A DNA stretch of 64,000 nt from positions 22,470,207-22,534,206 of the forward strand of contig OY783208.1 of NCBI GenBank assembly GCA_963678705.1, given 5' to 3'. Both the position numbers and the translations under genes were made by a program. The notes under the pieces are model-generated. The model did not search any database, had not been told where the DNA came from, and saw only the letters and a list, made by a program, of their open reading frames with translations. Shown piece by piece: positions 1-54,744 of the stretch. This DNA comes from Panorpa germanica (lineage: Eukaryota; Arthropoda; Insecta; Mecoptera; Panorpidae). Positions within the stretch are counted from its first letter, which is position 1. Each line of letters starts with the position of its first letter.

Positions 1-1
1 G

Positions 2-589
2 AACCTGAAGCCTTATATTTGTGATGTATGTCACAAATTGTTTGACACTTAGGCTGAAATCATAAAACATTTGCGTCTACATTCAGCAAAGAAACTACAT
101 TCTTGTAATACATGTAGTAAAATATTTGCTTATTCGTCAATTTTAAAACGACATAAAAACATACATTTAGGTTTAAAACCATTTTCTTGCGACGTTTGTA
201 ATAAGACGTTTAGTCAATCAGCATCTTTAAAAGGACATAAAAGCATACATTTAGGTTTAAAGCCATTTTCTTGCGATGAATGTGATAAAACTTTTATTCA
301 TTCATCGAATTTAAAACGACATAAAAACACACACTTAGATATATAACCATTTTCTTGCGACGTTTGTAATAAGACGTTTAGTCAATCCTCAAGTTTAAAA
401 TATCATAAAAACACACATTTAGATTTAAAACCATTTTCTTGCGACGTTTGTAATAAGACGTTTAGTCGATCATCACATTTAAAATCTCATAAAAATACAC
501 ATACAGGTTTAAAGCCATTTTCTTGCGATCAATGTGATAAATACTTTGCGCTTGCTGAATATTTAAAGAAACATCAAAAAACTCATTAA
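2..589 (+). pseudogene. Type A C2H2 zinc-finger pseudogene, 3' part (psi-A0)
   Basis: The frame is open apart from two stops: TAG at 50-52, where paralogues have AAG (Lys), and TAA at 344-346 inside a linker. About seven C2H2 fingers can be read, from the first finger (KLFDT-stop) to CDQCDKYF. The frame ends at TAA 587-589, five codons earlier than most A genes, an ending shared with the copies at 33931 and 57823. The 5' end lies outside the window. The protein would have been a nuclear DNA-binding protein; with two nonsense codons this copy is almost certainly dead. Confidence 0.8.
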
Positions 590-893
590 GTTCAAGTGCT
601 TAGTTTTGTCGCTCACCTAATTGTATTTTATGTTTGTAGCAGTTTTACTATGTACAGATTTGTAATAAATATTTTAAAAACTATGTAACGAATTATACTC
701 TATGAAATTTATTTAGTTTACTTTAATCTATTGTATTAAATAAATAATTTAAAAGATTTGTTGTTTCTTTGTCGAATTGCTACTGTTATTTAATTTAAAG
801 TTAATAAAATAATTCGTAATTGCAAATTACTTTTTTACTTTATTAAACATTTGCATCTATTTCAACTTTCTTTTGAACGATCACATTTTGAAA

Positions 894-1447
894 TGGGCTT
901 GTCTATTGGCGTGTCTATTTTATTAAATATCTAAATATTGACGGAGATATAGCAATTAAAAGTTTGAATTGTAGTTTTAGCGCTAGAAATGGTGAAATGC
1001 ATTTTAACGTCAGTTATTTGTTGAGTAGGTCAGCGCTGTGTTAATGTTTTGTAGCTGTTGGTAGTAAAATAATCAAATCAAGTCAAAAAATAATAAGTTT
1101 TTATTTTATTTTACCCTGCTAAGGCAGACATAATATTGAATTTTATTGTTCCTAGAAATAGCTGTAAATAATATTTGATATTTTTATATATAAATACATA
1201 TAGCAGAGATTTATGATCTGTAAGGTTGGTAACCTTACACAAGGATTGTGATGTCACATGCATTTGGAATGTGTTCAACGTTCAATCCCTTTAATAATAA
1301 AAGAGATAAAATTACTTTTTTAATTGTTAATATCTCTTAACATATAAGGAGCTATTAAAAACTAATTGGACATTTAAGGTTTCAGTAACCCACTTTATCA
1401 ATATTTAGTATATTTTTATAGAAATTAAGTCATAGGACACAAGCCCA
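894..1447 (+). mobile_element. MITE-1 copy, internally deleted
   Basis: Begins TGGGCTT and ends AGGACACAAGCCCA, the inverted ends of MITE-1. About 60 bp after the left end and a short internal piece are missing compared with the copy at 35030. It separates the dead gene from the upstream block of the next A gene. Equivalent copies sit at 35030 and 59254. Confidence 0.75.
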
Positions 1448-2241
1448 TTCATGCATACTATATAAGCATTAATTATTTATTTCATTGACTCTATAGAACA
1501 TACAAAACATTACTTTTTAAAATGAGTGTTTGAACCTCCATTTAATTGAAAGGTTTACACATAAATAACAAATCGTTTGAGAAAAAATACTACATTACTA
1601 CAAAACAAATTTAAATCAGTCTTTAATAAAAATTGAAATCCATAAAACCCGCTAAAAGCAATTGAAAACCGGCAATGGGAAACACCCTTCATGATCAAAA
1701 AACGCATTTAAGCCATCGACAGTTTATCTCTGACCTTGACTTGACATACCTCTTAGATTAAAGTTAACTTTTTACAGCTCGTTGCAAAGGTGTGGAATAA
1801 ATCAAATAAATATTATTAGTATTTGGTTCTTATTAAGTTAATATTCTAGAAACATAAAACTATCAACACCAGATTTAATACAACAACTGATATTTGAGAA
1901 AATTATAAATTAATATATGAAGGTATTTTAACTTTTAATTTTTAAATGAAAAACTTTGTTAGTTTATTATTTCGAAAGTAATAAACCTAGAGATCAAAAT
2001 GATTAATTGCTCTTGATTTTCACATGAACTTAATTTATGTTTTATAGAGTATTAATTTATTACAATTAAGTTTTTACCTATATTCAACTTAACCTCACTT
2101 ATTCACCTTCAATATTTCAAATGGTTACTTTCATTTTTCAAGCTCTTTAGATTTATTTGTTTTAACGGATTGCTCATATTTTTTAATAGTGAAAATGTAT
2201 TTCTTTTTGTTTTTAGTAAACTCAAATACTGTTTTACTATA
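1448..2241 (+). promoter_or_regulatory. Conserved upstream block of A1: TATA-like site, 5' UTR and intron acceptor
   Basis: This block is nearly identical upstream of most A genes. TATATAAG (1459-1466) lies 12 bp after the MITE-1 end, with TCATTG, an initiator-like site, about 25 bp further on. A polypyrimidine tract and TTTTTAG acceptor end at about 2216, 25 bp before the ATG. I infer a non-coding first exon and a 5' UTR intron; the donor cannot be placed with confidence. Confidence 0.4.
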
Positions 2242-3219
2242 ATGGAGAATAGAAAATTTCAAGAAATAAAACGAGAAATTGATGTGCGTTTAAATGAACA
2301 AATGTACACAGAAAATGTTTTTGAAAATATTAAAATAGAAATAGAGGAACCAGTTGTCAAAGAAGCAGCGCTATGTGATGAAATAAAAACAGAAATTAAA
2401 GAAGCATCAGACGATGGTTCAGAAGAAGCTGCACTTTTACCGCGAGATGGTTACTTCATTAAATTCGAAGTTCCAGCTGAAAATCTCGCTGATCCACAAA
2501 ACAGTGATCAACTTCAAAGTGATATGAATACGAACCTGAAGCCTTATATTTGTGATGTATGTCACAAATTGTTTGACTCTAAGGCAGAAATCATAAAACA
2601 TTTGCGTGTACATTCCGCAAAGAAACTACATTATTGTAATACATGTAGTAAAATATTTGCTGACTCGTCAACTTTAAAACGACATAAAAACATACACTTA
2701 GGTTTGAAACCATTTTCTTGCGACGTTTGTAATAAGACGTTTAGTCAATCCTCAAGTTTAAAACAACATAAGAACACACATTTAGATGTAAAAGCATTTT
2801 CTTGCGACGTTTGTAATAAGACGTTTAGTCAATCCTCAAATTTAAAACTACATAAGAACACACATTTAGGTTTAAAACCATTTTCTTGCGATGAATGCGA
2901 TAAAACGTTTAGTCAATCCTCAAATTTAAAACATCATAAAAACACACATTTAGGTTTAAAACCATTTTCTTGCGATGAATGTAGTAAAACGTTTAGTCAA
3001 TCCTCAAATTTAAAACAACATAAGAACACACATTTAGATGTAAAACCATTTTCTTGTGGTGAATGTAATAAAACATTTAGTCATTCTTCGCATTTAAAAC
3101 GACATAAAAACACACATTTAGGTTTGAAACCATTTTCTTGCGATGAATGTGATAAGTGTTTTACGCGAGCTGAATATTTAAAGAAACATCAAAAAACTCA
3201 TTTAGATTCTAGTGCTTAG
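2242..3219 (+). CDS. Type A C2H2 zinc-finger protein A1, 8 fingers
   Basis: 325 aa, probably a nuclear sequence-specific DNA-binding protein. The N-terminal ~100 residues are acidic and carry SUMO-consensus sites (psi-K-x-E: IKRE, IKIE, IKTE, IKFE). Eight C2H2 fingers follow, starting with PYICDVC and ending with CDECDKCFTRAEYLKKHQKTH. Linkers read LGLKPF or LDVKPF/AF instead of TGEKPF. The start is ATG 2242 (A at -3, G at +4); the frame extends upstream to a TTG, but that stretch crosses a splice acceptor. Downstream are an AATAAA site and a decayed retrotransposon fragment. The target DNA is unknown. Confidence 0.85.
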   Translation: MENRKFQEIKREIDVRLNEQMYTENVFENIKIEIEEPVVKEAALCDEIKTEIKEASDDGSEEAALLPRDGYFIKFEVPAENLADPQNSDQLQSDMNTNLKPYICDVCHKLFDSKAEIIKHLRVHSAKKLHYCNTCSKIFADSSTLKRHKNIHLGLKPFSCDVCNKTFSQSSSLKQHKNTHLDVKAFSCDVCNKTFSQSSNLKLHKNTHLGLKPFSCDECDKTFSQSSNLKHHKNTHLGLKPFSCDECSKTFSQSSNLKQHKNTHLDVKPFSCGECNKTFSHSSHLKRHKNTHLGLKPFSCDECDKCFTRAEYLKKHQKTHLDSSA

Positions 3220-3294
3220 ATGTGCCCCTCACATAACAACATGTACAAATTCTTTAATAAATATTATAAAAACTATTTAATGAATTATACTCTA

Positions 3295-4030
3295 CTCTAA
3301 TAATTTGAACTTTCGTTCAATTACAAATGTTAAAAAATATAATGAAAGATGCAAGAGGATTTTGGAGAGAGAGTTACGAGAGAAAGGCCCAAGGAACATA
3401 AGATTTAATCGTAATATTTAGATTGGGAAACGAAGAGAAGGCAGCATATAGCAGGAAAATAGAGAGCAAAGGATGTGCAGGAAAGAAATAGAAACGCTGG
3501 AACACATTAAGTATTCATGTGAGAAAAGAGTAAAAAGTGAAAAGAAGACTGTGCAGTTATTAAAGGGAAGATTTGGATGACAATGATAGTCAAGGGTGAA
3601 GGCGGGAGGAAAGAGAGGGAATTACACAGTGGAATAAGGAGAGAGAGTAACAGGAAGAGAGAAGGAATCGACCAAATAGTGTGCTAGAAATAACGCAGCA
3701 GCTGTTGATGTAAAAGATCAAAAGAGTACAACCTTTTATATTTAAATAAATTGTGTTCAATATTTTCGTTAACCCCTGTGAACATAGTTTATAAACCTCT
3801 GATGAGCAATAAACCTGGCGTCAAGAAAAGCAAAACCACTTTACAGGTGTAAATTCAAGAAAGAAGAAGAAGCAGGAAACGGTGAGAATGAAGGAGGAGT
3901 AGGGAACATGGTGAGATAAGGTCAAGAAAAGAAGAAGCAGAAAGTACTTTTGGAAGTAGTAAAAGTCTAGAATACTTAAGTTTGAATTCATATAAAAATG
4001 AAATGTATTAGGAAATATCCTATATTATAA
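3295..4030 (+). mobile_element. Decayed 3' fragment of a non-LTR retrotransposon
   Basis: The plus strand encodes broken pieces resembling the C-terminus of the element at 61991-64000: RFRLGNEEK-like, then a CGKxIETLEHIKYSCEK-like zinc knuckle, with frameshifts and stops. The last ~100 bp (AAGAAGCAGAAAGTACTTTT and onward) match the reverse complement of about 62105-62150. It lies 75 bp after the A1 stop; similar fragments follow A2, A3 and A5. Confidence 0.65.
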
Positions 4031-4560
4031 TGTTCCAAGTGTATGTATATTTATATGTTTATATGTTTGTTTGTTGCTGAAATTCGTATGGTAGAATGAA
4101 AACGGCTCCCTCAATGTTTTTGAAAGTTTGCTATTTCGTAGAGAAAAAATTTCTAAGACTTTTAGCGTCCCCGAATTTTCCCCTAAATTTCCTGAAAACC
4201 CGTAATTTTGGAAAAACTAAAAAAAAATTTTTTATTTTTTGCTCTGTAACTTTTAATTCGTAAAAGATAGAAAGTTGAAATTTGGTATGTGTATTACGGT
4301 GTTCAATTTTAACATTTTTTGAAATTAGGAATTGATAAATTGGAAATGGGGGCGTGGTTAAGAAAATTAGAGGACCTGGCTAAAAATTAAACTAAAAAAA
4401 ATTCTAAATTTAAAAATTGTATTTGAGGGCACGGGGCGGTTTTTGCCGAAAGTAAAAATTGTACTAGAAAGTTGAAATTTGATATATGGGCTAATTTTGA
4501 TACCTGATTTACGAATCGAAAAAAAAATCCCAAATTTTTAAAAAAAAAGTTGGTCAAATA
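4031..4560 (+). repeat. Unclassified interspersed repeat (family R)
   Basis: AT-rich non-coding sequence starting near TGTTCCAAGTGTATGT and containing AAAACGGCTCC and TTTCTAAGACTTTTAGCG. Shorter or diverged copies occur at 31810, 38245, 14686 and 49944. I see no coding sequence and cannot assign a class. Confidence 0.5.
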
Positions 4561-5273
4561 AGGAATAAATTGAAAGTATTTTATATATTATTGAAAAAAA
4601 ATATTCTTTTAGTCAATTTATATGAAAAATTAATTTATTATTGTTCGAGTTTATTATTTCAATTTAAAAACAGAGTTAAATATGATATATGATGATATAA
4701 ATATATTTTATTGGATTCAAATCATACACACTAAAAAGACGTCGCATTGCGACGGGGTAAACTCTAGTAATACTATAGATTGTAAAGCTGAAAGGCACAC
4801 AATTAATGTAATAAAAAATTAATATAAAATACAATAAAACAATATTGTTATAGACAAACATTTTTTAATAAACTGACACTTACAAAATTGCATAAAATAC
4901 TTAAAACAATTTTATAAATATAACAACATTAGTTCATTACAATTAATTAACAAATAACATAACCATATCAACATAAAGAAATTTAAGTTTTTGAAAAACT
5001 AAAAAAAGTCAATTATAATAGAAACTTTACATAGAATAGAACAAAATTTCAGTTTTACTTGTCCCTTAAAATACATTTTAAGAGACAATATTTAAAGTTT
5101 GAATCTTGATGAGGACTTCTATACATTAATAACAATTTACATCTAGTTAACATTAATTCTTAACAATTATTCCATCATAATTGTGTCAAATTTTATTTGA
5201 CAAATATGGGAAAATACATTTAATAATATTTTACATTCGCTAAACGTGAATAAAATCACTTTACGCATAACAT
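4561..5273. repeat. Duplicated 3' flank of type D zinc-finger gene
   Basis: From about 4705 this matches 22655-23240 (3' flank of the type D gene) almost base for base, including AAAGACGTCGCATTGCGACG and a stretch near 4765-4800 resembling the 3' tail of the non-LTR element at 62000. No gene is visible. Confidence 0.6.
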
Positions 5274-5730
5274 CTATTTTTTTGGTTTAATTGGTTTATT
5301 TTTTAAATGTTTCATAACATGCGTTTTCAACGCATCCTTTCGACTAAACGATTCGTTACATAATTCACAAAAATGAGGTTTCTCACCTGTATGTCTTCGC
5401 CTATGTATAACTAGTGAATTATTCTGGGAAAATGTTTTATCACACATATCACAAGAGTACGGTTTAACTCCTGTATGGATTCTAGAATGTACATCTAAAC
5501 TACTTCTAGTAAAGAATGCTTTGTTACAAACTTCACATTTAAAAGGTTTATCTGCAGTATGCGTTTTCTCATGCACCCTTAAACAACCCTTCGAAACGAA
5601 AGACTTATTACAAATACGACAATAAAAAGGTCTTTCACTTGTATGTCGGCGCATATGAACCTGAAAGGATCTTTTCATTAAAAATGATTTCTGACAAAGG
5701 TTACAAGTAAATGGCTTTTCGCCATTATGT
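5274..5730 (-). pseudogene. Truncated type D zinc-finger gene, C-terminal five fingers
   Basis: The minus strand encodes five canonical C2H2 fingers with TGEKP/TGVKP linkers, nearly identical to the last five of the gene at 23241-24655, ending KNKPIKPKK and TAA. The 5' end is cut at 5730/5731, where the sequence switches to the plus-strand tail of a type C gene. There is no ATG start (only TTG at 5741) and no promoter, so it is a fragment left by rearrangement. Confidence 0.85.
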
Positions 5731-5900
5731 CTTGTGATCAATGTAATAAAACATTTAAGCGGTCGTCATATTTAAAAGAACATAAAAACACACAACATTT
5801 AGGTTTAAAACCATTTTCTTGCGATTTGTGTAATAATTGCTTTGCACGTGCTGCTAATTTAAAACAACATCAAAAAACTCATTTATATGACAATGTTTAA
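5730..5900 (+). pseudogene. Type C zinc-finger 3' fragment
   Basis: 57 codons matching the end of the type C gene at 42227-43390: CDQCNKTFKRSSYL, then the last finger CDLCNNCFARAANL and the ending LYDNV-TAA. The body of the gene is absent. This is the left edge of the segmental duplication whose other copy begins at 43220. The junction with the inverted type D fragment shows about 2 bp of microhomology (TC). Confidence 0.85.
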
Positions 5901-11400: not shown

Positions 11401-14400
11401 TTAAATGCATTTATAGTATCTTTAGAAATACTTTAGGTAAAAACAATTTATTTCGTTATTTCAGGTGATACAACAGAGATTTACTGGGGAGGTAGACTTC
11501 TATAGAAATTATACCGAATACAGTGACGGATTCGGCGGAAAAACTGACAGTCATTGGCTTGGGCTTGAGCACATCCATGAGGTAGATCAGTTTGTATTTG
11601 TTAACAACATTTCAACGTCATCAATGGGCTTGTGTCCTCATTTCTTAGTGGTCGATTTTTCAATTGTTGATTGAAATTGATCTTAATAAATGTGTATTGG
11701 CGTGTCTATTTTATTAAATATCTAAATGTTGACGGAGATATAGCAATTAAAAATTTGAATTGTAGTTTTAGCGCTAGAAATGGTCGGCCATATTTGTATG
11801 ACGTGAAATGCATGTTAACGTTATTTGTTGAGTAAGTCAGTGCTGTGGTAATGTTCTGTAGCTGTTGGTAGTCAAATAATCAAGTCACATTAAAGAATAA
11901 TAAGTTTTTATTTTATTTAACCCTGTTAAGGCAGACATAATATTGAAATTTGATTGTTCCTTGAAATAGCTGTAAATAATATTTGATATGTAAATACATA
12001 AAGCAGATATTTATGAGCTGTAAGGTTGGTAACCTTACACAAGGATTGTGATGTCACATGAATTTGGAATGTGTACAACGTTGAATCCCTTTAATAATTA
12101 AAAAGAAAAAAATGACTTTTTTAATTGTTAATATCTCTTAACATATAAGGAGTTATTAAAAAATAATTGAACATTTGAGGTTATAAAAATTAATACATAG
12201 GACACAAACCCATTATCGTGGAAGTTAGTCTGTTGCTGTGAACACTCAGAAAAATGGAATTCATAATGACTTGTATTCGTTGCAGATCACAAAAGGAGGA
12301 CACCATGAGCTGTACGTTGAACTGGAGACGTATAACGGGACCAAGGCGTACGCCCGTTACGACACTTTCATGGTCGGCAATTCCAGTACTGGGTTCCAGC
12401 TGGCAATTAGTGGTTACAGCGGAACTGCCGGTAAGTTTTGTAACTTGTGTCCTTTCTAAACTTCCTGTGAAGTGCAGTTAGTTTTGTGTTCTACTCTAAC
12501 ACCAGTCCTGCCCTGAATTTTACGCGAAATAAAGATTCTTCTTGTTAACAATTAACAAATGCATGAGCATAGCAGTGACAACTTTGACGGCATTTTGAAT
12601 ATTTGTCAATACCTTCCTTTCACACTAGATCCAGTTCTACAGTCCATTATTTAGATGTGAAATCAATTCTGCCGGACTATAAAATCTAGTGGTTCTCAAT
12701 TAGACCACAAAGCCCAATGTTTGATCAATTAATATTACTTTGTGCGGTTGTATTTAGTTGCTGTCCCACATTTGTTGGAAATGAACGAATGGTAACTCGA
12801 CAAATAAAGAAAGGACAATGTGAACGAAGTTAACGGTACAACTTATTTGCTTTAAATCTTATTTTATTTTAGAATCAAATTGAAAATCAAATAAAAATTC
12901 ATCACCAAAAGTATATTATTTATTAGCGAGCTATCACAACCAAAATTGTTGAGGCACGACACTTTACCACTAGATTGTTAGACCCAACTGTCGACCGTTA
13001 AAATATTAGGCATAACTTGACATATTGAGCAGTAGTGTTGTAGCTGGGACAGCAAATACAAAAAGAATGGGCCCCATAGACGACCAACTTGGTTGGCAAC
13101 AGGTTGGTGGTTGAGTTTCATGTTGAATCCTGTCAAATGTCGGTGACAAGCCGTGGCGATAGAAAATAATTTCGTTAAAAAGTAAAAGTTCCTATATCAA
13201 AATCATTATTTGTGGACCATTATATGTATTGTCCCACTTACCAGAGTTAAATCATATCGCGCTTTTTGTGGCGTACTATTTTTGATATCCTATGGATGTA
13301 ATTGTTATATGGAGTAACGCAAAAAAACATTAAACCTAACTCTTAAAATGCTATATAACTAATCCCAGGATTGACTGTTTCAAATCCCGAAATTCCAGGA
13401 TCGTGAATATGTTTCGGGATTGCATTAACTCTTGAGATATCACACTTAAACGTCAGATACAACTTACAGCTGTCTGGGGCAATGCATAAAGTTATGATAT
13501 TATCCATAGAATCAATTACTTATTATTCTACAGACTTCTATAAAGATATTTAAAAATTAAAGAAAATAATTCACAACCCAATTTATTTAAAATTATGTCA
13601 CCCTCCCAACACTAGACAAACCGGGTAACACCGGGTATTAGGAGTTGATAACAAATAAACTTAACACAAAACACACTTTGTGACGTAAACGTGTTATTAA
13701 ATGTTAAATTATTGATTAAGTAATGTGGTTAACACGTTGAGAACGGAGCACGGTGTGCGGAACACGTTGTGTTTTACTTTTGTAAAACAACAGGAAGTTT
13801 TATGTTTTGTTTCCCCGTTGTCCAGTGGTTGTAATCCCCCTTCGTCACCCCGTCCCGTCATGAACGTGTTAACAACGTGTTCAGGTTGTTGTTGTGTGTC
13901 CTGTTGTTGTTTTGTTTGTACCGCAGTGTTCTTGGTATTGTTTCAGGCGACTCAATGTACGGAACACCTCACAGCAACAGCTACAACCTGAACGGAATGA
14001 AGTTCTCTACGTTTGATAACGATCAGGACGAATGGATATACGGTCACTGTGCTCAGCAGCGGCAAGGAGCCTGGTGGTACAATCAATGTGGTTTCAGGTA
14101 AGTAGCTCCACCTGCGTTACGTGACGCGTGATGTGACGGTCCTCTAGAGTGTAGGGTTGCCAAATTAAAATTAGTTTTGTTAGATGAAATTAAAAAAATA
14201 TGCAGCAACCCAATGAAACTGCCATCGCTTTGTTGCAGATTTAGATTTTTGTTATTTATGATTTTCAGTGAATTGACTAAAATATATTTCAGTGCAGAGT
14301 TGATGGCAACATTCAGTTGTTGTCAGTTGGTAACCCTGATCCATTTCTGTCCACCCTTTGTTTTTGTGTTGGTACTATTCTAACGTTGTGTTTTACTTGC

Positions 14401-14520
14401 AGCAATTTGAACAGTGTGTACCACAACACGGATGTTAATGGTTGGAGCACAATGTCCTGGTATTACAACTTTGAGTGGTACGCCCTTAAAACAGCGCGAA
14501 TGCTGATCAGAAGAAAATGA
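8441..14520 (+). CDS. Secreted multi-sushi fibrinogen-related protein, copy 1
   Basis: Twelve exons, 587 aa: 8441-8492, 9235-9283, 9469-9656, 9729-9932, 10059-10262, 10377-10583, 10681-10884, 11095-11219, 11465-11581, 12286-12430, 13947-14097 and 14403-14520; all GT-AG with matching phases. Exon 1 is a signal peptide (MLKIFIMLVWCQTGLLS). Exons 3-7 each encode one sushi/CCP domain (four Cys, Trp before the last Cys), in symmetric phase-1 exons. Exons 8-12 encode a fibrinogen-related domain of ~218 aa ([44 protein letters not shown]). Such proteins usually bind glycans or acetylated ligands outside the cell, often in immunity; that role is inferred here. The CxxSNLN region has Cys-Gly where many family members have Cys-His. 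Sushi 2 has an extra Cys. Poly(A) signal at 14555. Confidence 0.87.
11625..12212 (+). mobile_element. MITE-1 copy in intron 9 of sushi-fibrinogen gene 1
   Basis: Starts TGGGCTTGTGTCCTC, ends AGGACACAAACCCA. It lies between the WLGLEHIHE exon and the ITKGGHHEL exon, same orientation as the gene. The second gene has the same insertion at the same place (47972), so it predates the duplication. Flanking ATC on each side (outside AA/TT) could be a target duplication, but other copies do not confirm a 3-bp duplication. Confidence 0.8.
12740..13845. other. Copy-specific 1.1 kb within intron 10
   Basis: Present in gene 1 only; in gene 2 the flanks are joined at 49120/49121. No terminal repeats or coding sequence are seen. 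Either an insertion here or a deletion in copy 2. Confidence 0.5.
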
Positions 14521-15067: not shown

Positions 15068-15651
15068 CGAGGCATGGTTTTTAAGTAAGTACCGTTTTGC
15101 GATTCCGTCTTTGCAGCGATACGGTCGGCGTTCCGCGCATGCGCGCTCGTTACCTACATCTCTTATCTACGCACTGACGCCATTACAGTCTGCTTCTTCA
15201 TTGTATACGTTGTTTACTGAGTGTTTAAGATGCCTCCGACAATCGTGAGTCCCGCCGATTGTGAAGTACGGGCTGTTATACGATTTCTTAGTGCTAAAGG
15301 CGTGAAACCGATTGATATTCATCGTGAGATCTGTGAAGTTTACGGACAAAACATTATGAGTGATGGAATAGTAAGGAAATGGGTGAGAGCATTTAAAGAT
15401 GGCCGCACCGCACCGCAAGACGATAACGAAGTCAAAACAGTTGTGATACAGAGGTTAACAAGTCAGGCGGCAGAATTTTATGAGGAGGGTATTCAAAAAC
15501 TGGTGCCACGTTATGACAAGTGCCTCAATATTCACGGAAATTATGTAGAAAAGTAGATTAAGGTACAGGCTTTCATGTAAAAATATAATTATTGCGATAT
15601 CTTTGCACGTCTTTAATTCCAAAACGGTACTTACTTAAAAAACACGCCTCG
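15068..15651 (+). mobile_element. Internally deleted mariner-like element
   Basis: 584 bp with ~30-bp imperfect inverted repeats (CGAGGCATGGTTTTTAAGTA at left; right end complementary to CGAGGCGTGTTTTTTAAGTA) and TA target duplications at 15066-15067 and 15652-15653. It keeps a reading frame made of the transposase start and end only. A copy with the same deletion lies at 50288 in the duplicate. Confidence 0.85.
15230..15556 (+). pseudogene. Mariner transposase remnant: HTH fused to C-terminal tail
   Basis: The ATG at 15230 (MPPTIVSPADCEV) opens a ~108-aa frame. Residues ~5-60 match the mariner N-terminal helix-turn-helix (FLSAKGVKPIDIHREI, VRKWVRAFKDGR). The sequence then jumps to the C-terminal tail (EEGIQKLVPRYDKCLN, YVEK). 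The whole DDD/DDE catalytic core is missing, so it cannot catalyse transposition. A binding-only product could in principle compete for mariner ends, but the three amino-acid differences from the copy at 50450 give no sign of constraint. Confidence 0.8.
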
Positions 15652-15925: not shown

Positions 15926-16009
15926 CAATCCCTAGCTGCAACATTTGTGCATTACTAGATTTTTCTCTTTTCCAAAATATTTGAACAACGTGCCAAGTAG
16001 TTTCGACAA

Positions 16010-16710
16010 TGGGCTTGTGTCCTCATTTTTAGTGTTCGATTATTCAATTGTTGATTGAAATTGATGTTAATAAATGTGTATTGGCGTGTCTACTTTATTA
16101 AATATCTAAATGTTGACGGAGATATAGCAATTAAAAGTTTGAATTGTAGTTTCAGCGCTAGAAATGGTCGGCCATATTTGTATGACGTGAAATGCATTTT
16201 AACGTCAGTTATTTGTTGAGTAGGTCAGTGTTGTGGTAATGTTTTGTAGCTGTTGGTAGTCGAAATAATCAAGTCAAGTCAAAGAATAATAAGTTTGTAT
16301 ATTATTTAACCCTGTTACGGCAGACATAATATTGAAACTTAATTATTCCTTGAAACAGCTATAAATATTATTTGATATTTTGATATATAAATAAATATAG
16401 CAGAGATTTATGAGCTGTAAGGTTGGTAACTGTAAACTTGTCATAGTTTTGTCATGAATATGCTATCTCTTTTATGCTCTGTTGTATTAAGGAGATAGCA
16501 ACATAGCGGATGTGAGGACACATGTCTTGGAATGTTCTCCAACGTTGAATCCCTTTAATAATTAAAGAGACAAAATTACTTTTTTAATTGTAAATATCTC
16601 TATCTAACATATAAGAAGTTATCAACAAATAATTGGACATTTGCGGTTTAGTAACTAATTAAAAATATATAGTACACTTTTATAGAAATTAAGCCATAGA
16701 CACAAGCCCA
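16010..16710 (+). mobile_element. MITE-1 copy, variant with ~90-bp internal segment
   Basis: Ends TGGGCTTGTGTCCTC and GACACAAGCCCA. Relative to the copy at 35030 it has an alternative middle segment (GTAAACTTGTCATAGTTTTG and onward) shared with 51233 and, in reverse, 28880. These three define a subfamily. Confidence 0.8.
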
Positions 16711-17324: not shown

Positions 17325-17443
17325 ATATTTCGTAACCTACTAATCTATGGCAAAGAAGTTTTGTTCATCTTAACCTTACTTCTTTATGTCACAAGCTCAT
17401 ATTTTTTTATAGTGATAAACTAATTTTTGTTTATAGTGAACAA

Positions 17444-18314
17444 ATGGAAATATCAAAAATAAACGAAGATATCAAGAGCGAAATAAAAGAGGAGCATTTC
17501 GTCAAAGAAATAGAATCCTGCGATGAAATAAAAACAGAAATTAAAGATGAGCCATTCGAAAATGTAGAGGAAGCTGAAATTTTACCGCGGCACACTGAGC
17601 ACATTATTGAGTTCGAAGTTCAAGTTGAAAATATCGCTGAACCGCTATCAAATGAAATTAATTCAAACTTGAAGCCTTATATCTGTGAAGTATGTAACAA
17701 ATTGTTTGGTAATGAAACAGAAATTATCAAGCATTTGCGGGTACATTCAGAAAAAAATATATCAAATTTAAAATTACAAAAAAAACAAAGGTTCAGGTTT
17801 AAAACGCTTTTCTTGCGGCGAATGTAGCAAAACGTTTAGTCAATCATCGCATTTAAAACAACATGCAAGTACACATTTAGGTTTTAAACCATTTTCTTGC
17901 GATCAGTGTGATAAAACGTTTAGTCAATCAGGACATTTAAAACGACATAAAAACACACATTCCGGTTTGAAACTATTTTCTTGTGATGAATGTAGTAAAA
18001 CGTTTAGTCAATCTTGGAATTTAAAACTACATAAAAACACACATTTAGGTTTAAAACCATTTTCTTGCGACGAATGTAGTAAAACATTTAGTCGGTCAAC
18101 ACATTTAAAACGACATAAAAACACACATTCCGGTTTGAAACCATTTTCTTGTGATGAATGCGATAAAACGTTTAGTCAATCATCGCATTTAAAATTGCAT
18201 CGAAATGCACATTTAGGTTTAATACCGTTTTCTTGCGCTTTATGTGACAAGTGCTTTACGCGAGCTGAATATTTAAAGCAACATCAAAAAACTCATTTAG
18301 ATTCAAGTGCTTAG
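17444..18314 (+). pseudogene. Type B C2H2 zinc-finger gene B1, frameshifted
   Basis: ATG 17444 (MEISKINEDIK) follows a TTTGTTTATAG acceptor by 7 bp. The N-terminus has IKSE, IKEE, IKTE and IKDE sites, then finger 1 (PYICEVC). An A8 run at about 17778-17785 replaces the A7 run of the B3 gene and shifts the frame, so translation ends at 17825-17827. All remaining fingers (about six) are open in the shifted frame to TAG 18312-18314. With only this lesion, it is either a recently dead gene or a homopolymer error; if the latter, it encodes a 7-finger protein like B2. Confidence 0.75.
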
Positions 18315-18764
18315 ATGTGCCCCTCACATAACAATATGTACAAATTCTTTAATAAATATTATAAAAACTATTTAACGAATTATACTGTAAGTTTTATATT
18401 TAAATATAGACCCTTTATTATTTTATTTTAATCTATTTTATTAAATCAATAGTATTATGTATTAGTGGTTTCCCTGTCATTTACTTTTTTATTTCATTAA
18501 ACAACCATACATATTCCAATTTTGAACTTTCTACCTTTTTCACAATTCAACTTTCTGTTTCTATTTTGAAAGAAAATCTTTCCAGAATATTTGGTTAATT
18601 TTGGAACACGCATTTTGCTCCTTTAAGCAGCAAAATGTTGCTAAATTCATTATTTATTTTAACATTTTTGTCAAATTACAAATTATTTATTGTTTTATGA
18701 CAAATTCATTTATATTTGCGCCACCAGAGACCTCTTTCATCAACCAGATTACAGCTGGACACAA
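18315..18764. other. 3' flank of B1
   Basis: Contains AATAAA soon after the stop and then AT-rich sequence shared with the 3' flanks at 32243, 38681 and 61287. A frame starting at TTG 18601 runs into the MITE and is not a gene. Confidence 0.5.
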
Positions 18765-19210
18765 TGGGCTTGTGTCCTATGTCTTAATTTCAATAAATGT
18801 GTACTTTATATTGATAAAGTGGGTTACTAGAACTCCTTATATGTTAAGAGATATTAACAATTAAAAAAGTCATTTTGTCTCTTGAATTATTAAAGGGATT
18901 CAACGTTGTACACATTCCAAGTGCGTGTGATATCACAACCGCTGCCAAACTTACAGCTCATAAATCTCTGCTATATGTATTTATATATCAAAATATCAAA
19001 TATTATTTACAGCTATTTCATGGAACAATCAAATTTAAATATTATGTCAGCCGTAACAGGGTTAAATAAAATAAAAACTTACTCTTCTTTGATTTTACTT
19101 GATTATTCGACTACCAACAGCTACAAAACATTACCACAGCACTGACCTACTCAACAAATAACTGGTGTTAAATGTATCCCACTTTATCAATATTTAGCAT
19201 ATGTTTATAG
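18765..19210 (-). mobile_element. Chimeric MITE-1 with right end at both sides, one end lost
   Basis: Starts with the MITE-1 right end in reverse (TGGGCTTGTGTCCTATGTCT) and runs to ACAAATAACTG, then joins GTGTTAAATGTATCCCACTT, which is right-end sequence in forward orientation. The final ~30 bp is missing here. The same junction is present at 20085, 32672 and 39110. Confidence 0.65.
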
Positions 19211-19980
19211 CATACTATATAAGCATTAATTATTTATTTCATTGACTCTATAGAACATACAAAACATTACTTTTTAAAATGAGTGTTTGAACCTCCATTT
19301 AAATGAAAGGTTTACACATAAATTAACAAATCGTTTAAGAAATAATACTACATTACTACAAAACAAATTTAAATCAGTCTTTAGTAAAAATTGAAATTCA
19401 TAAAACCCGCCAAAAACAATTGAAAACCGGCAATGGGAAACACCCTTCATGATCAAAAAACGCATTTAAGCCATCGACAGTTTATCTCTGACCTTAACTT
19501 GACATACCTCTTAGATTAAAGTTAACTTTTTACAGCTAAATCTAATAAATATTATTAGTATTTGGTTCTTATTAAGTTAAAATTCTAGAAACATAAAACT
19601 ATCAACACCAGATATAATACAACAACTGATATTTGAGAAAATTATAAATTAATATATAAAGGTATTTCAACTTTTAATTTTTAAATGAAAAACTTTGTTA
19701 ATTTATTATTTCGGAAGTAATAAACCTAAAGATCAAAATGATTAATTGCTCTTGATTTTCACATAAACTTAATTTATGTTTTATAGAGTACTAATTTATT
19801 ACAATTAAGTTTTTACCTGTATTCAACTTAACCTCACTTATTCACCTTCAATATTTCAAATGGTTACTTTCATTTTCCAAGCACTTTAGATTTATTTGTT
19901 TTAACGGATTGCTCATATTTTTTAATAGTGAAAATGTATTTCTTTTTGTTTTTAGTAAACTCAAAAACTATTTTACTATA
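19211..19980 (+). promoter_or_regulatory. Conserved type A upstream block (truncated-gene copy)
   Basis: TATATAAG at 19216-19223, then the common block with the TTTTTAG acceptor just before the ATG at 19981. It now leads into a truncated gene. Confidence 0.4.
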
Positions 19981-20084
19981 ATGGAGAATAGAAAATTTCA
20001 AGAAATAAAGCGAGAAATTGATGTGCGGTTAAATGAACCAATGTACACAGGAAATGTTTTTGAAAAAGTGTTTAATCTATAAAG
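19981..20084 (+). pseudogene. Type A zinc-finger gene, 5' stub
   Basis: ATG 19981 gives MENRKFQEIKREIDV and so on for ~31 codons to VFEK, then the sequence leaves the family consensus and reaches a stop at 20080-20082. The acidic region beyond residue ~30 and all fingers are missing. Chimeric MITE-1 sequence begins at about 20085, followed by a second complete A upstream block. This looks like a deletion or unequal exchange that fused the gene to the MITE of the next unit. Confidence 0.8.
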
Positions 20085-20571
20085 TTCTATAAAAGTGTAC
20101 TATATATTGATAAAGTGGGTTACTAGAACCTTAAATGTTCAATTATGTCCTTATACTCCTTATATGTTAGGCGATATTAACAATTAAAAAAGTCATTTTG
20201 TCTCTTTAATTATTAAAGAGATTCAATGTTGTACACATTCCAAGTGCATGTGATATCACAACCGCTGCCAAACTTACAGCTCATAAATCTCTGCTATATG
20301 TAAAAATATAGCAAATTGTATATCAAAATATCAAATATTATTTACAGCTATTTCATGGAACAATCAAATTTTAATATTATGTCAGCCGTAACAGGGTTAA
20401 ATAAAATAAAAACTTACTCTTCTTTGATTTTACTTGATTATTCGACTACCAACAGCTACAAAACATTAACACAGCACTGACCTACTCAACAAATAACTGG
20501 TGTTAAATGTATCCCACTTTATCAATATTTAGTATATTTTTATAGAAATTAAGACATAGGACACTAGTCCA
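20085..20571 (-). mobile_element. Chimeric MITE-1, left edge truncated
   Basis: Begins inside the right end (TTCTATAAAAGTGTACTATA), has the same internal fusion as 32672, and ends AGGACACTAGTCCA. It abuts the stub gene and the A2 upstream block. Confidence 0.65.
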
Positions 20572-21346
20572 TTCATGCATACTATATAAGCATTAATTAT
20601 TTATTTCATTGACTATATAGAACATACAAAACATTACTTTTTAAAATGAGTGTTTGAACCTCCATTTAATTGAAAGGTTTACACATAAATTAACAAATCG
20701 TTTGAGAAATAATACTACATTACTACAAAACAAATTTAAATCAGCTTTAGTAAAAATTGAAATTCATAAAACCCGCTAAAAGCAATTGAAAACCGGCAAT
20801 GGGAAACACCCTTCATGATCAAAAAACGCATTTAAGCCATTGACAGTTTATCTCTGACCTTAACTTGACATACCTCTTAGATTAAAGTTAACTTTTTACA
20901 GCTAAATCAAATAAATATTATTAGTATTTGGTTCTTATTAAGTTAATATTCTAGAAACATAAAACTATCAACACCAGATATAATACAACAACTGATATTT
21001 GAGAAAATTATAAATTAATATATAAGGGTATTTCAACTTTTAATTTCTAAATGAAAAACTTTGTTAGTTTATTATTTCGGAAGTAATAAACCTAAAGATC
21101 AAAATGATTAATTGCTCTTGATTTTCACATGAACTTAATTTACGTTTTATAGAGTACTAATTTATTACAATTAAGTTTTTATCTATATTCAACTTAACCT
21201 CACTTATTCACCTTCAATATTTCAAATGGTTACTTTCATTTTTCAAGTACTTTAGATTTATTTGTTTTAACGGATTGCTCATATTTTTTAATAGTGAAAA
21301 TGTATTTCTTTTTGTTTTTAGTAAACTGAAAAACTGTTTTACTATA
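20572..21346 (+). promoter_or_regulatory. Conserved upstream block of A2
   Basis: TATATAAG at 20583-20590, 11 bp after the MITE-1 end; TTTTTAG acceptor 26 bp before ATG 21347. Same layout as the A1 block. Confidence 0.4.
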
Positions 21347-22066
21347 ATGGAGAATAGAAAATTTCAAGAAATAAACCGAGAAATTAATGTGCGTTTAAAT
21401 GAACCAACAGGAAATGTTTTTGAAAATATTAAAATAGAAATAGAGGAACCAGTTGTCAAAGAAGCAGCGCTATGTGATGAAATAAAAACAGAATTTAAAG
21501 AAGAACCAGACGATGGTTCAGAAGAAGCTGCACTTTTACCGCGAGATGACTACTTCATTAAATTCGAAGTTCCAGCTGAAAATCTCGCCGATCCACAAAA
21601 CAGTGATCAACTGCAATGTGAAATGAATACGAACCTGAAGCCTTATATTTGTGATGTATGTCACAAATTGTTTGACACTAAGGCAGAAATCAAAAAACAT
21701 TTGCGTGTACATTCCGCAAAGAAACTACATTCTTGTAATACATGTAGTAAAATATTTGCTGACTCGTCAACTTTAAAACGACATAAAAACATACACTTAG
21801 GTTTAAAACCATTTTCTTGCGACGTTTGTAATAAGACGTTTAGTCAAGCATCAACTTTAAGTGGACATAAAAACACACATTTAGGTTTAAAACCATTTTC
21901 TTGCGATGAATGTGGTAAAGCTTTTATTCATTCATCGAATTTAAAACAACATAAAAACACACATTTAGGTTTAAAACCGTTTTCTTGCGCTTTATGCGAT
22001 AACTGTTTTACGCGAGCTGAATATTTAAAGAAACATCAAAAAACTCATTTAGATTCTAGTGCTTAG
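21347..22066 (+). CDS. Type A C2H2 zinc-finger protein A2, 5 fingers
   Basis: 239 aa. The acidic N-terminus lacks two residues found in A1 (NEPTGNVF instead of NEPMYTGNVF), a variant shared with the copy at 57823. Five fingers: PYICDVC, LHSCNTC, CDVCNKTFSQASTLSGH, CDECGKAFIHSSNLKQH and the terminal CALCDNCFTRAEYLKKH. Linkers are LGLKPF. The ATG follows the shared acceptor; the frame ends in DSSA-TAG. Intact, so probably a functional nuclear DNA-binding protein with a short finger array. Confidence 0.85.
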   Translation: MENRKFQEINREINVRLNEPTGNVFENIKIEIEEPVVKEAALCDEIKTEFKEEPDDGSEEAALLPRDDYFIKFEVPAENLADPQNSDQLQCEMNTNLKPYICDVCHKLFDTKAEIKKHLRVHSAKKLHSCNTCSKIFADSSTLKRHKNIHLGLKPFSCDVCNKTFSQASTLSGHKNTHLGLKPFSCDECGKAFIHSSNLKQHKNTHLGLKPFSCALCDNCFTRAEYLKKHQKTHLDSSA

Positions 22067-22361
22067 ATGTGCCCCTCACATAACAACATGTACAAATTCT
22101 TTAATAAATATTATAAAAACTATTTAACGAATTATACTCGAATTATAAGTTTTATATTTTATTTATTAAATCGATAATTTAAACAAATTGTTGCATTAAT
22201 AACGTTAATTATAAAATAATATTATATTAATAAAATAATTCGTAATTTCAATTACATATTTTATTTCTAATTTTAAATTCAAATAATTGAATATATTGTT
22301 CAATAAAATATAGTTTTAATCTTGCAAACTACTTTTTTACTTTATTAAACATATGTGTACC

Positions 22362-27529: not shown

Positions 27530-28165
27530 TGGGCTTGTGTCCTATGTCTTAATTTCTATAAAAGTGTACTATATATTGATAAAGTGGGTTACTAGAACCT
27601 CAAATGTTCAATTATTTTTTAATAACTCCTTATATGTTAAGAGATATTAACAATTAAAAAAGTCATTTTGTCTCTTTAATTATTAAAGGGATTCAACGTT
27701 GTACACATTCCAAGTGCATGTGACATCACAATCCTTGTGTAAGGTTACCAACCTTATAGCTCATAAATCTATGCTATATGTATTTATATATCAAAATATC
27801 AAATATTATTTACAGCTATTTCGAGGAACAATCAAATTTCAATATTATGTCTGCCTTAGCAGGGTTAAATAAAATAAAAACTTATTATTTTTTGACTTGA
27901 CTTGATTATTTTGACTACCAACAGCTGCAGAACATTACTACAGCACTGACCTACTCAACAAATAACTGACGTTAAAATGCATTTCACGTCATACAAATAT
28001 GGCCGACCATTTCTAGTGCTAAAACTATAATTCAAACTTTTAATTACTATATCTCCGTCAACATTTAGATATTTAATAAAATAGACACGCCAATACACAT
28101 TTATTAACATCAAGTTCAAACAACGATTGAAAAATCGACCACTAAAAAATGAGGACACAAGCCCA
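27530..28165 (-). mobile_element. MITE-1 copy, full length, reverse
   Basis: Begins TGGGCTTGTGTCCTATGTCT, ends GAGGACACAAGCCCA. Standard (non-chimeric) arrangement. Confidence 0.8.
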
Positions 28166-28879
28166 TTATCAGCCGAACTTAAATATAGAGCAAAACAAAC
28201 ACCATACTTTGAAGCGAGCTCGAAAAATTGTCAGAAGGGGTACAAAATAGGGGTCTATAAATTACCACTACATACCAATGTGTTTTGAGGTCGTTCTTTT
28301 AAAGATTTATAGAAATGAAGTCATATTTCACAAGCCCATTTTGTTCATCGCATGCATCTGATAACGACCTAACCTAGAATATTGACAACAAGTGTGTGCT
28401 GGGCCTTTAAGAAATGGATGATTTAAATACAAATAGCATGTATTGTATTTTATATGATAAATAAATAATTATAAAAGTATTTAATTCCCGCATGATTGGA
28501 TTTTAAAATATTTATATATAATTAACAAAAAGAATCTATAAAATAGGTTAGTAAAGATTCAAATTAAAGATAGACATTACCTTTTTAATAAGGTTGCGAA
28601 CACTGCTTAAGTCAGGTTTCACACCTATTAAAATTTCCGCCGACTACTACACACGGCGTAATATTTTGTGCATGCACGGGAAATTTCGTACAATTAAAAA
28701 ATTAATTTTCAGTATTATAAAGATCATGTAAATGTTGCTCACAAAACCACCCTTAATGGAATGAGAGACATTGTAAATTATTGATGAAATAAATCACTGA
28801 CAGATGCTGCGTAGTTGTTTGGTAAGTGATATAGACTGTTCAATAAGAAGAAAAATAATCACTTGTAGCTTCCGTGTAA
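28166..28879. other. Intergenic sequence with a truncated MITE-1 end
   Basis: No gene seen. Bases 28301-28338 (TTTATAGAAATGAAGTCATA and onward, ending CACAAGCCCA) are a solo right end of MITE-1. Confidence 0.5.
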
Positions 28880-29567: not shown

Positions 29568-30207
29568 TTAAAGGTTAAAATGTGAGCTTAGCGACATTTG
29601 CTGTTGTCATACTGATGTTGCCCACATCAACGGGCATGCTCGGTTCAAACCCGATAGTCAAGTGTGTAGAGGGCCTTTAGTCTAATGTTGGCAGTACGTA
29701 AGTTGATTTATAAAAACCTTACTTTGCATCTCTGACCTTAACTTGACATACCTCTTAGATTAAAGTTAACTTTTTACAGCTAAATCAAATAAATATTATT
29801 AGTATTTGGTTCTTATTAAGTTAATATTCTAGAAACATAAAACTATCAACACCAGATATAATACAACAACTGATATTTGAGAAAATTATAAATTAATATA
29901 TGAAGGTATTTCAACTTTTAATTTTTAAATGAAAAACTTTGTTAGTTTATTATTTCGGGAGTAATAAACCTAAAGATCAAAATGATTAATTGCTCTTGAT
30001 TTTTACATGAACTTAATTTATGTTTTATAGAGTACTAATTTATTACAATTAAGTTTTTACCTGTATTCAACTTAACCTCACTTATTCACCTTCAATATTT
30101 CAAATGGTTACTTTCATTTTTTAAGCTCTTTAGATTTATTTGTTTTAACGGATTGCGAAAATGTATTTCTTTTTGTTTTTAGTAAACTCAAAAACTGTTT
30201 TACTATA
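29568..30207 (+). promoter_or_regulatory. A3 upstream region lacking the shared TATA part
   Basis: Homology to the other A upstream blocks starts only at about 29727 (TCTCTGACCTTAACTTGACA) and runs to the acceptor and ATG. The first ~280 bp of the block, with TATATAAG, is replaced by unique sequence and a MITE-1 copy. Bases 29644-29662 contain a T-arm-like GGTTCAAACCC that does not fold into a tRNA. Confidence 0.4.
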
Positions 30208-31017: not shown

Positions 31018-31094
31018 ATGTGCCCCTCACATAACAATATGTACAAATTCTTTAATAAATATTATAAAAACTATTTAACGAATTATACTCTACT

Positions 31095-32191: not shown

Positions 32192-32242
32192 TTAAAGCAA
32201 CATCAAAAAACTCATTTAGATTTAAGTGTCTTCTTCACCTAA
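32192..32242 (+). pseudogene. Zinc-finger gene tail fragment
   Basis: About 16 codons: LKQHQKTHLDLSVFFT-TAA, the end of the last finger and C-terminus of a type A/B gene, directly fused to family R repeat sequence. A second copy lies at 38630. The rest of the gene is gone. Confidence 0.7.
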
Positions 32243-37452: not shown

Positions 37453-37532
37453 ATGTGCCCCTCACATAACAACATGTACAAATTCTTTAATAAATATTAT
37501 AAAAACTATTTAATGAATTATACTCTACTCTA

Positions 37533-47700: not shown

Positions 47701-49784
47701 ACAAATCGCCTTGGACATTTACAGCCTTAAGAAAATCCTTTCAAGGATTAAATGCATTTATAGTATCTTTAGAAATACTTTAGGTAAAAACAATTTATGT
47801 CCTTATTTCAGGTGATACAACAGAGACTGAATGGAGAAGTAGACTTCTATAGAAATTATACCGAATACAGTGACGGATTCGGCGGCAAAACTGACAGTCA
47901 TTGGCTCGGGCTTGAGCACATCCATGAGGTAGATCAGTTTGTATTTGTTAACAACATTTCAACGTCATCAATGGGCTTGTGTCCTCATTTTTTAGTGGTC
48001 GATTTTTCAATTGTTGATTGAAATTGATGTTAATAAATGTGTATTGGCGTGTCTATTTTATTAAATATCTAAATATTGACGGAGATATAGCAATTAAAAG
48101 TTTGAATTGTAGTTTTAGCGTTAGAAATGGTCGGCCATATTTATATGACGTGAAATGCATTTTAACGTCAGTTATTTGTTGAGTAGGTCAGTGCTGTGAT
48201 AATGTTCTGTAGCTGTTGGTAGTCAAATAATCAAGTCAAATCAAAGAATAATAAGTTTTTATTTTATTTAACCCTGCTAAGGCAGACATAATATTGGAAT
48301 TTGATTGTTCCTTGAAATAGCTGTAAATAATATTTGATATTTTGATATATAAATACATATAGCAGAGATTTATGAGCTGTAAGGTTGGTAACCTTACACA
48401 AGGATTGTGATGTCACATGAATTTGGAATGTGTACAACGTTGAATCCCTTTATTAATTAAAAAGAAAAAAATGACTTTTTTAATTGTTAATATCTCTTAA
48501 CATATAAGGAGTTAATAAAAAATAATTGAACATTTGAGGTTATAAAAATTAATACATAGGACACAAACCCATTATCGTGGAAGTTAGTCTGTTGCTGTGA
48601 ACACTCAGAAAAATGGAATTCATAATGACTTGTATTCGTTGCAGATCACAAAAGGAGGACACCATGAGCTGTACATTGAGCTGGAGGCGCATAACGGGAC
48701 CAAAGCGTACGCCCGTTACGACACTTTCATGGTCGGCAATTCCAGTACTGGATTCCAGCTGACATTTAGCGGTTACAGCGGAACTGCCGGTAAGTTTTGT
48801 TACTTGTGTCCTTTCTAAACTTCCTGTGAAGTGCAGTTAGTTTTGTGTTCTACTCTAACACCAGTCCTGCCCTGAATTTTACGCGAAATAAAGATTCTTC
48901 TTGTTAACAATTAACAAATGCATGAGCATATTAGTGACAACTTTGACGCCATTTTGAATATTTCTAGCAGTTTCTAACAGTAGATATCAATACCTTCCTT
49001 TCACACTAGATACAGTTCTACAGTCCATTATTTAGATGTGAAATCAATTCTGCCGGACTATAAAATATAGTGGTTCTCAATTAGACCACAAAGCCCAATG
49101 TTTGATCAATTAATATTACTCACCCCGTCCCGTCGTGAACGTGTTAACAACGGATGGTTGTGTTGTGTGTGCCTAATTGTTGATTCGTTTGTACCGCAGT
49201 GTTCTTGTTATTGTTTCAGGCAACTCAATGACCGAACTCAACGGCTACGTGAACGGAATGAAGTTCTCTACGTACGACAAGGACCAGGACAAGTGGTCGA
49301 GTAACTGTGCTGAGCAGCGGCAAGGAGCCTGGTGGTACAATGGTTGTGGTTACAGGTAACTATCTCCATCTGCATCTGCGTCACGTGACGCGTGATGTGA
49401 CGGTCCTCTAGAGTGTAGGGGTGCCAAATTAAAATTAGTTTTGTTAGATGAAATTAAAAAAATATGCAGCAACCCAATGAAACTGCCATCGCTTTGTTAC
49501 GGATTTAGATTTTTGTAATTTATGATTTTCAGTGAATTGACTAAAATATATTTCAGTGCAGAGTTCATGGCAACATTCAGTTGTTGTCATTTGGTAACCC
49601 TGATCCATTTATGTTCACCCTCTGTTTTTGTGTTGGTACTATTCTAACGTTGTGTTTTACTTGCAGCAATTTGAACAGTGTGTACCATGATACGGCTGTT
49701 AATGATTGGAGCACAATGTCCTGGTATTACAACTTTGAGTGGTACGCCCTTAAAACAGCGCGAATGCTGATCAGAAGAAAATGA
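44765..49784 (+). CDS. Secreted multi-sushi fibrinogen-related protein, copy 2
   Basis: Twelve exons, 582 aa: 44765-44816, 45557-45605, 45791-45978, 46051-46254, 46401-46604, 46719-46925, 47016-47219, 47442-47566, 47812-47928, 48645-48789, 49220-49355 and 49667-49784; all phases agree with copy 1. Signal peptide [17 protein letters not shown], five sushi domains, fibrinogen-related domain. Compared with copy 1 the sushi exons differ at few residues and the extra Cys in sushi 2 is absent. Exon 11 is 15 bp shorter and strongly changed ([34 protein letters not shown]). Intact. A role in recognising microbial or self surface sugars is inferred from the family. Poly(A) signal at 49815. Confidence 0.87.
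47972..48571 (+). mobile_element. MITE-1 copy in intron 9 of sushi-fibrinogen gene 2
   Basis: Same insertion point and flanks as 11625-12212; ends TGGGCTTGTGTCCTC and AGGACACAAACCCA. Confidence 0.8.
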
Positions 49785-54700: not shown

Positions 54701-54744
54701 ATTTTTTTATAGTGATAAACTATTTTTTTGTTTATAGTGAACAA

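Follow-up and report, generated by a model that had tools for sequence, protein, structure and literature searches.

A few systems are known in which animals that lack antibodies have diversified recognition proteins (snail FREPs, sea urchin 185/333, and Dscam, by splicing), and the FREPs of Biomphalaria (BgFREPs), like molluscan FREPs in general, carry N-terminal immunoglobulin-type domains. BgFREPs are described as a multigene group of fibrinogen-domain recognition proteins in which diversity arises by gene conversion together with point mutation (PMC12074976). For the SSSGP genes of the Hessian fly, the account given in PMC2955719 is one of conserved introns and UTRs around a highly diversified coding sequence, for which positive selection and concerted homogenisation were proposed. 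Drosophila FREPs number 14-43 genes per species and their domains are called highly conserved in PMC2429915. As far as the accounts of the FIBCD1, ficolin and tachylectin 5A (TL5A) domains go, the acetyl pocket is largely conserved, save that Trp443 is a Tyr in TL5A and in two ficolins, and the S1 site of ficolin-2 is said to be inactive (PMC3908420, PMC10825690). No hypervariable sushi-fibrinogen family of the kind described below was found in the open-access literature.

The DNA analysed here, called the window, is the whole of a 64,000 nt stretch of Panorpa germanica (C5:22470207-22534206, in a 464-Mb assembly of 249 contigs). Searches for the repeats (TTAGG)6 and (TYAGG)6 gave no match. 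A sequence-only reading had noticed in it two fibrinogen-domain genes, nearly identical save for one hypervariable exon, exon 11.

Two sushi-fibrinogen genes in the window

The features of the two genes are listed in Table 1. Both copies have the same layout, i.e. a signal peptide, five sushi/CCP-type exons and a C-terminal fibrinogen domain made up of exons 8-12; the signal peptide and the count of five CCP exons were judged by eye from the sequence, and tblastn gives matches between exon 3 and the weaker CCP exons. With the two window proteins Pfam returned Sushi and Fibrinogen_C alone, and no N-terminal immunoglobulin-type domain as in molluscan FREPs. Copy 1 gave Fibrinogen_C at 1e-55 and Sushi at 5.8e-22 in three stretches, and copy 2 gave Sushi in two stretches; the PF00147 scores were 189 and 198 bits (cut-off 22), both proteins covering profile positions 3-219 of 221. 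Searching the window by tblastn with the exon peptides revealed no third exon-11- or exon-12-like sequence (the sole match was of 10 residues, E 0.48), so that the idea that the window conceals alternative versions of exon 11 or 12 was rejected.

Table 1. Features of the two window genes (positions are those of the window; HV, hypervariable)
Feature	Position	Strand	Basis or remark
Copy 1, 12-exon gene, 587 aa	8441..14520	+	Splice model with consensus sites, open frame
Copy 2, architecture as copy 1, 582 aa	44765..49784	+	12-exon splice model, open frame
Exon 11, copy 1	13947..14097	+	151 nt; 221 bp including flanks identical at C5:22602304
Exon 11, copy 2	49220..49355	+	136 nt; 206 bp including flanks identical at C5:22711755
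HV1 loop, copy 1 (GTPHSNSYN), length-variable across the family	13961..13987	+	Opposite FIBCD1 380-382, alignment uncertain
HV2, calcium loop, copy 1 (EWIYG)	14030..14044	+	FIBCD1 396-399
HV3, copy 1 (QRQ)	14057..14065	+	FIBCD1 404-406, pocket position Tyr405 included
HV4, copy 1 (Q)	14084..14086	+	FIBCD1 Asn413
HV5, copy 1 (GF)	14090..14095	+	FIBCD1 His415-Thr416
Exon 12, copy 1, second hypervariable exon	14403..14520	+	Family alignment
HV codons, exon 12, copy 1	14413-14418, 14437-14448, 14455-14457, 14461-14466, 14476-14481	+	
Codon in exon 12, copy 1	14476-14478	+	Opposite FIBCD1 Trp443
Exon 12, copy 2	49667..49784	+	5/118 nt different from copy 1
Tract divergent between copies 1 and 2	12740..14113	+	1.1 kb of intron 10 missing in copy 2, acceptor side of intron 10, exon 11, start of intron 11

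Several other elements were seen in the window. A 108-residue open frame, which resembles the start of a mariner-type transposase, lies downstream of both fibrinogen genes (15230-15556 and 50450-50776) and was co-duplicated with them. The blocks 1-5888, 17400-22160, 29700-43400 and 52300-62000 are mutual repeats (about 70-95% identity) that alternate with the lectin genes; their 41000-43400 stretch consists of tandem C2H2 zinc-finger arrays with the linker THLGLKPFSC. A dispersed repeat of some 400-600 bp occurs in both orientations (11623-12185, 16007-16430, 27530-28167, 35028-35635, 47970-48573, 56439-57052 and 59252-59813), with one copy in the post-exon-9 intron of both lectin genes.

Divergence of exon 11 between the two copies

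Amino acid differences between copies 1 and 2 amounted to 6/42 in exon 8, 2/39 in exon 9, 5/48 in exon 10 and 3/38 in exon 12, versus 15 of the 46 aligned codons in exon 11, where five indel residues were left unaligned in addition. The contrast between exon 11 and all other exons (15/46 versus 51/536, Fisher p = 4.5e-5) bears out the claim that it had diverged beside near-unchanged exons 9, 10 and 12. The companion claim, that intron 11 is nearly identical in the two genes, holds for the larger part of it (3.6% different) but not for its first ~50 bp (7.5%). Divergence is also found on the other side: the ~100 bp of intron 10 at 13845-13946 differ by 14%, and about 1.1 kb of copy 1 intron 10 (12740-13844), held in full or in part by several relatives, is missing from copy 2.

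For exon 11 the rates were dS 0.297 and dN 0.188 (ω 0.63), versus 0.097 and 0.045 outside it, i.e. an excess of both nonsynonymous and synonymous changes (p = 2e-6 and, on rounded counts, p = 0.013). The exon-11 rates depend on the alignment: the same pair gives pS 0.216 and pN 0.202 in the 59-row family alignment. Since dS is raised and the flanking intron diverged along this tract, the pair alone indicates exchange of a tract, not selection. The sequence-only reading had offered diversifying selection or conversion, to be decided by dN/dS exon by exon, and would have given up selection for a synonymous divergence as high as the nonsynonymous one combined with a donor paralogue. Both processes appear to act: within the pair dS exceeds dN, which gives no evidence of selection, none of the best 40 candidates per search made a good donor, and in the family as a whole ω is above 1 at the loop columns (see below). 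The best explanation for the pair is that copies 1 and 2 are recent duplicates, at least one of which acquired a different exon-11 tract; what had been noticed is one cassette exchanged between two recent duplicates.

A family with a constant framework and hypervariable stretches

The exon-11 core GMKF[ST]T[YF]D.DQ was found at 204 places in the genome with at most two mismatches (control with the reversed pattern: 0). Among the 100 core matches listed, 83 were on C5, 16 on C1 and 1 on C4; 15 of these 100 form a second, smaller cluster at C1:7117308-9746998, several of them being core-identical. The copies studied were found through exon-11 similarity to the window copies. Searches with exon 11 gave 60 loci (L009-L068), from which 14 repeated places or window copies were removed, as were L012 and L014, which match L013 and L015 exactly or nearly so; with another 40 loci (L072-L111) and the two window genes, the total came to 86 gene copies. 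The sample comes from one genome and is enriched for exon-11 similarity and for C5, and the share of copies on C5 (82/86) is partly due to the loci having been taken mostly from there. Setting aside eight copies without an exon-11 model left 78, and then 13 without exon 12 and six with a faulty exon 12 left 59; removal of near-duplicates reduced these to 52, and dropping eight genes with divergent introns to 44.

A few oddities were met among the loci. In L011 the stop codon of exon 12 is lost and the frame is 11 residues longer. Several loci are (nearly) exact duplicates, for which an assembly duplication is conceivable: the 3.2-kb loci L012 and L013 (C5:22452611 and 22363288), and likewise L014 and L015 (22688447 and 22546391), are identical or nearly so at distances of 89 and 142 kb, and could be very recent segmental duplications or assembly duplicates.

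In the 59 copies, exons 11-12 display a constant framework broken by hypervariable stretches, the first of which also varies in length; 25 of the 81 columns are hypervariable. Exon 11 is therefore not the single hypervariable exon it had been taken for, exon 12 being equally hypervariable among other family members. Exons 8-10 are far less variable (9, 13 and 22 genes with these exons within the stretches taken). In exon 10, 11% of the residues differ versus 74% at the hypervariable columns (105 pairs from 15 genes, all of the lineage 77-100% identical to copy 1, so that exon-10 conservation holds for the lineage of the window genes). Genome-wide, identity to exon 10 of copy 1 is 77-100% in 94 of 150 rows, 71-73% in two and 50-67% in 54. 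Genes of this second exon-10 lineage (50-67%, e.g. L035 and L026) bear exons 11-12 of the same kind. For the first sushi exon, the best 67 of 150 rows reach an identity of 82% or more with copy 1.

Selection on the hypervariable codons

At the hypervariable codons the amino acid differs in 57-93% of pairs (302 non-independent pairs from 37 genes whose introns are 1-5% diverged). Among the 44 genes, diversity was 0.56 at bases 1-2 of the loop codons, versus 0.086 in introns and 0.074 at bases 1-2 of the framework; as in the SSSGP pattern, introns are less diverged than coding sequence. The ratio of dN at hypervariable columns to dS of the framework was 2.86 (gene bootstrap 2.37-3.37), with a framework ω of 0.24. 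Hypervariable columns were picked by their variability, which inflates their ω, and this is offset in part only by a test free of column choice, in which 48/166 first- or second-base exon sites were above the intron 99th percentile versus 5/408 intron sites (Fisher 4.5e-23, 44 genes). The loop ω was about 3 by NG86 and 5-10 by simulation. Per-synonymous-site counts in NG86 are inflated where transitions dominate twofold codons, and the value of ~3 is thus probably low. Family-wide, the loops do show diversifying selection.

Not all of the divergence is of that origin. The framework pS of exons 11-12 is above that of exon 10 in the same pairs (0.249 versus 0.109), so that some of the divergence in exons 11 and 12 stems from older exchange rather than from selection. 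Framework synonymous and intron distances are decoupled, the former staying at about 0.11-0.21 while the latter span 0.025-0.26. The notion that the exons are family-wide older than the introns was weakened, the framework fourfold diversity (0.124, 8 sites) being close to the intron value of the 44 genes.

Mosaic genes and the probable exchange of short tracts

Copy 1 and L009 (C5:22602304) differ at 0/151 positions in exon 11 and at 13/118 in exon 12 (Fisher 1.5e-5); copies 1 and 2 show the opposite pattern, with 28/136 and 5/118 (Fisher 1.2e-4). Exon 12 of L009 is identical to that of L015, and L009 differs from copy 1 by 2.0% in the larger part of intron 11 and by 0.8% in the first 480 bp of 3' flank. 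That copy 1 and L009 have exon 11 in common but not exon 12 indicates that an exon was exchanged, and the reversed patterns of the two pairs that the exons travel independently.

Mosaicism extends into exon 11 itself. A stretch of 18 nt in copy 1's first loop has an exact match only in L016 and in the duplicate L009 among the 78 modelled genes, and a 45-nt piece that starts 12 nt further on is as in L011, L013 and L015; the long common pieces in copying paths (45-51 nt) are mostly framework and little informative, and the 18-nt loop piece alone is telling. Between copy 1 and L011, exon 11 has 18 nonsynonymous differences and one synonymous difference. Identical duplicates apart, and among the best 40 of the 195-210 candidates per search, no close donor was found for exon 11 of copy 2 (best match 86%), for exon 11 of copy 1 (90%) or for the copy 1 tract 13700-13990 (83%); a single close donor of exon 11 was rejected on these identities of at most 83-90%.

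Linkage disequilibrium was low (63 biallelic sites, 44 genes): mean r2 was 0.12-0.13 within 10 bp and 0.04-0.08 beyond, not strictly falling since it was 0.079 at 300-600 bp, and the correlation of r2 with distance was stronger than in 1000/1000 permutations. All four gametes were present for 74 of 105 pairs of exon-11 sites, a result that recurrent mutation can also yield. Low linkage together with the mosaics suggests pervasive short-tract conversion, to which recurrent mutation contributes, and conversion is the probable cause of the mosaics. Copy 2 and L039 (C5:22710255) are identical from the end of intron 10 through exon 12, then diverge by 1.1% over the next 480 bp and by 4.6% over the following 500 bp, which has the look of a conversion tract that stops behind the gene.

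Position of the hypervariable columns on the fibrinogen domain

Human FIBCD1 (4m7f) was taken as reference, by sequence alignment. As given in PMC3908420 and PMC10825690, its acetyl pocket comprises Tyr405, His415, Tyr431 and Trp443, with Ala432 at the base, its extended site Asn413, His396, Arg412 and Glu398, and Ser397 and Asn399 coordinate calcium through main-chain carbonyls. The hypervariable columns align with residues 396-399 (calcium loop), 404-406, 413, 415-416 and 443. Six of nine FIBCD1 side-chain contacts fall within the 25 hypervariable of the 81 columns (p = 0.022), a modest enrichment for contacts that we chose ourselves (396, 398, 405, 412, 413, 415, 431, 432 and 443); His382 was excluded because the alignment of loop 1 is uncertain, and Cys414 on account of its conservation as a cysteine, its contact being through the main chain. 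The positions of Arg412, Tyr431 and Ala432 are not hypervariable.

Among 52 distinct peptides, an Asp stands opposite the calcium-site residues Asp393 in 51 and Asp395 in 52, and a Cys opposite the two partners of the Cys401-Cys414 disulfide in 52 and 50. The S1 pocket is not conserved in this way: there is hypervariability at the columns of Tyr405, His415 and Trp443, with Arg and Gly facing the first two in copy 1, and Ala takes the place of Tyr431 in most copies. On this alignment, fold and calcium site appear to be kept and the presumed ligand pocket appears to vary.

Discussion

We propose that the two window genes are members of a germline family of secreted lectins with sushi and fibrinogen domains, the majority of whose exon-11 cores (83 of the 100 listed) lie on a single contig the size of a chromosome. 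Within their own lineage, conserved exons 8-10 would be combined in the fibrinogen domain with hypervariable exons 11 and 12, and these two would specify the loops surrounding the calcium site and the S1 ligand pocket. About 25 loop codons would be altered by diversifying selection, with loop 1 changing in length as well, purifying selection would hold the framework, and short-tract gene conversion would swap exons and parts of exons among copies. The diversity of the exon-11 cassette would then stem from diversifying selection on the presumed ligand loops of the pool, which conversion reassorts. To this whole explanation, in which diversifying selection and conversion have together shaped a germline repertoire of recognition lectins, we give a probability of roughly 0.78. 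The loops presumably bind varied, probably glycan, ligands, and the family is probably a recognition repertoire, most likely an immune one.

The main competitor on the evolutionary side is exchange without positive selection, by which conversion places old, neutrally diverged exons on recent duplicates. It agrees with the joint rise of dS and dN and the diverged flanking intron in copies 1 and 2, with framework synonymous distances that do not follow those of introns, and with the mosaics and low linkage. We nevertheless find it improbable, since neutral age fails to account for a diversity of 0.56 at loop bases 1-2 when framework fourfold sites (8 sites) show 0.12 and introns 0.09, and no high-identity donor was seen among the best 40 candidates per search. 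A targeted mutator, akin to a diversity-generating retroelement, that alters bases 1-2 of loop codons and spares the third was suggested by the near-fixed, column-specific third bases (C in 51/53 at exon 11 column 12, C in 52/55 at exon 12 column 19, T in 46/55 at exon 11 column 48) in columns where bases 1-2 take all four letters. A codon simulation with selection only (star tree; ω 10 with a neutral pairwise distance of 0.11, or ω 5 with 0.21) gave p1 and p2 of about 0.57 and p3 of 0.27-0.32, the observed values being 0.59, 0.54 and 0.34; it thus reproduces the third-base pattern and no special mutator is needed. Framework adenines, moreover, are not hypervariable, contrary to what adenine-specific mutagenesis would give, and we consider such a mutator very improbable. 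That the variable loops are simply unselected, through relaxed constraint or pseudogenisation, is barely credible: some copies seem broken, namely L038 with its in-frame stop and the 8/86 loci without an exon-11 splice model, but 78/86 have open, spliced exon-11 models, the framework ω is 0.24, and relaxed sites should not surpass introns.

A different question is what a real repertoire would serve. Possible non-immune roles, if on the unlikely side, are for example the recognition of self or of mates, adhesion, or a part in glandular or salivary secretions. The salivary effectors of the Hessian fly offer the same kind of contrast between conserved non-coding and diversified coding sequence in the account of PMC2955719; for the fibrinogen-domain proteins of invertebrates, roles in immunity as well as in other physiology are described (PMC2429915, PMC12074976). 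A stronger version of the preferred reading, i.e. an anticipatory germline repertoire of about 200 lectins on a chromosome scale, with a fixed scaffold and antibody-like loops, that a dedicated exchange of short tracts at a high rate, perhaps with mutation raised locally, keeps close to linkage equilibrium and renewing between individuals, is tentative and in our opinion unlikely as a whole.

In the germline repertoire that we favour, the loops vary much like antibody loops and the remainder of the gene far less, possibly making it an inherited recognition repertoire. Variation falls in discrete loops of a well-studied domain, the ligand site of which has been solved in a relative, and with ~200 copies the family makes differing glycan binding, the speed of turnover, and conversion versus mutation as the source of variants testable.

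Such a repertoire is known in kind from Hessian fly SSSGPs and snail FREPs; its scale and form look new. As described for the SSSGPs, introns are conserved relative to a diversified coding sequence, but the SSSGPs are small and secreted, with seven genes in 15 kb in the example given by PMC2955719, whereas here multidomain lectins with ~200 core motifs are found, and variation is confined to the loops of one domain beside conserved scaffold exons. With BgFREPs it shares the fibrinogen-domain multigene family, in which diversity was there ascribed to conversion and point mutation (PMC12074976); unlike in BgFREPs, sushi domains precede the fibrinogen domain and the variation lies in the ligand loops of germline copies. 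It is an expanded insect fibrinogen-domain family, as in Drosophila, but with ~200 copies and hypervariable loops, set against the family portrayed in PMC2429915. Finally, it has in common with FIBCD1, ficolins and tachylectin 5A the domain, the calcium aspartates, the disulfide cysteines and the S1 region; in contrast to the pocket reported for those proteins (PMC3908420, PMC10825690), the positions of Tyr405, His415 and Trp443 are hypervariable among the copies of one genome.
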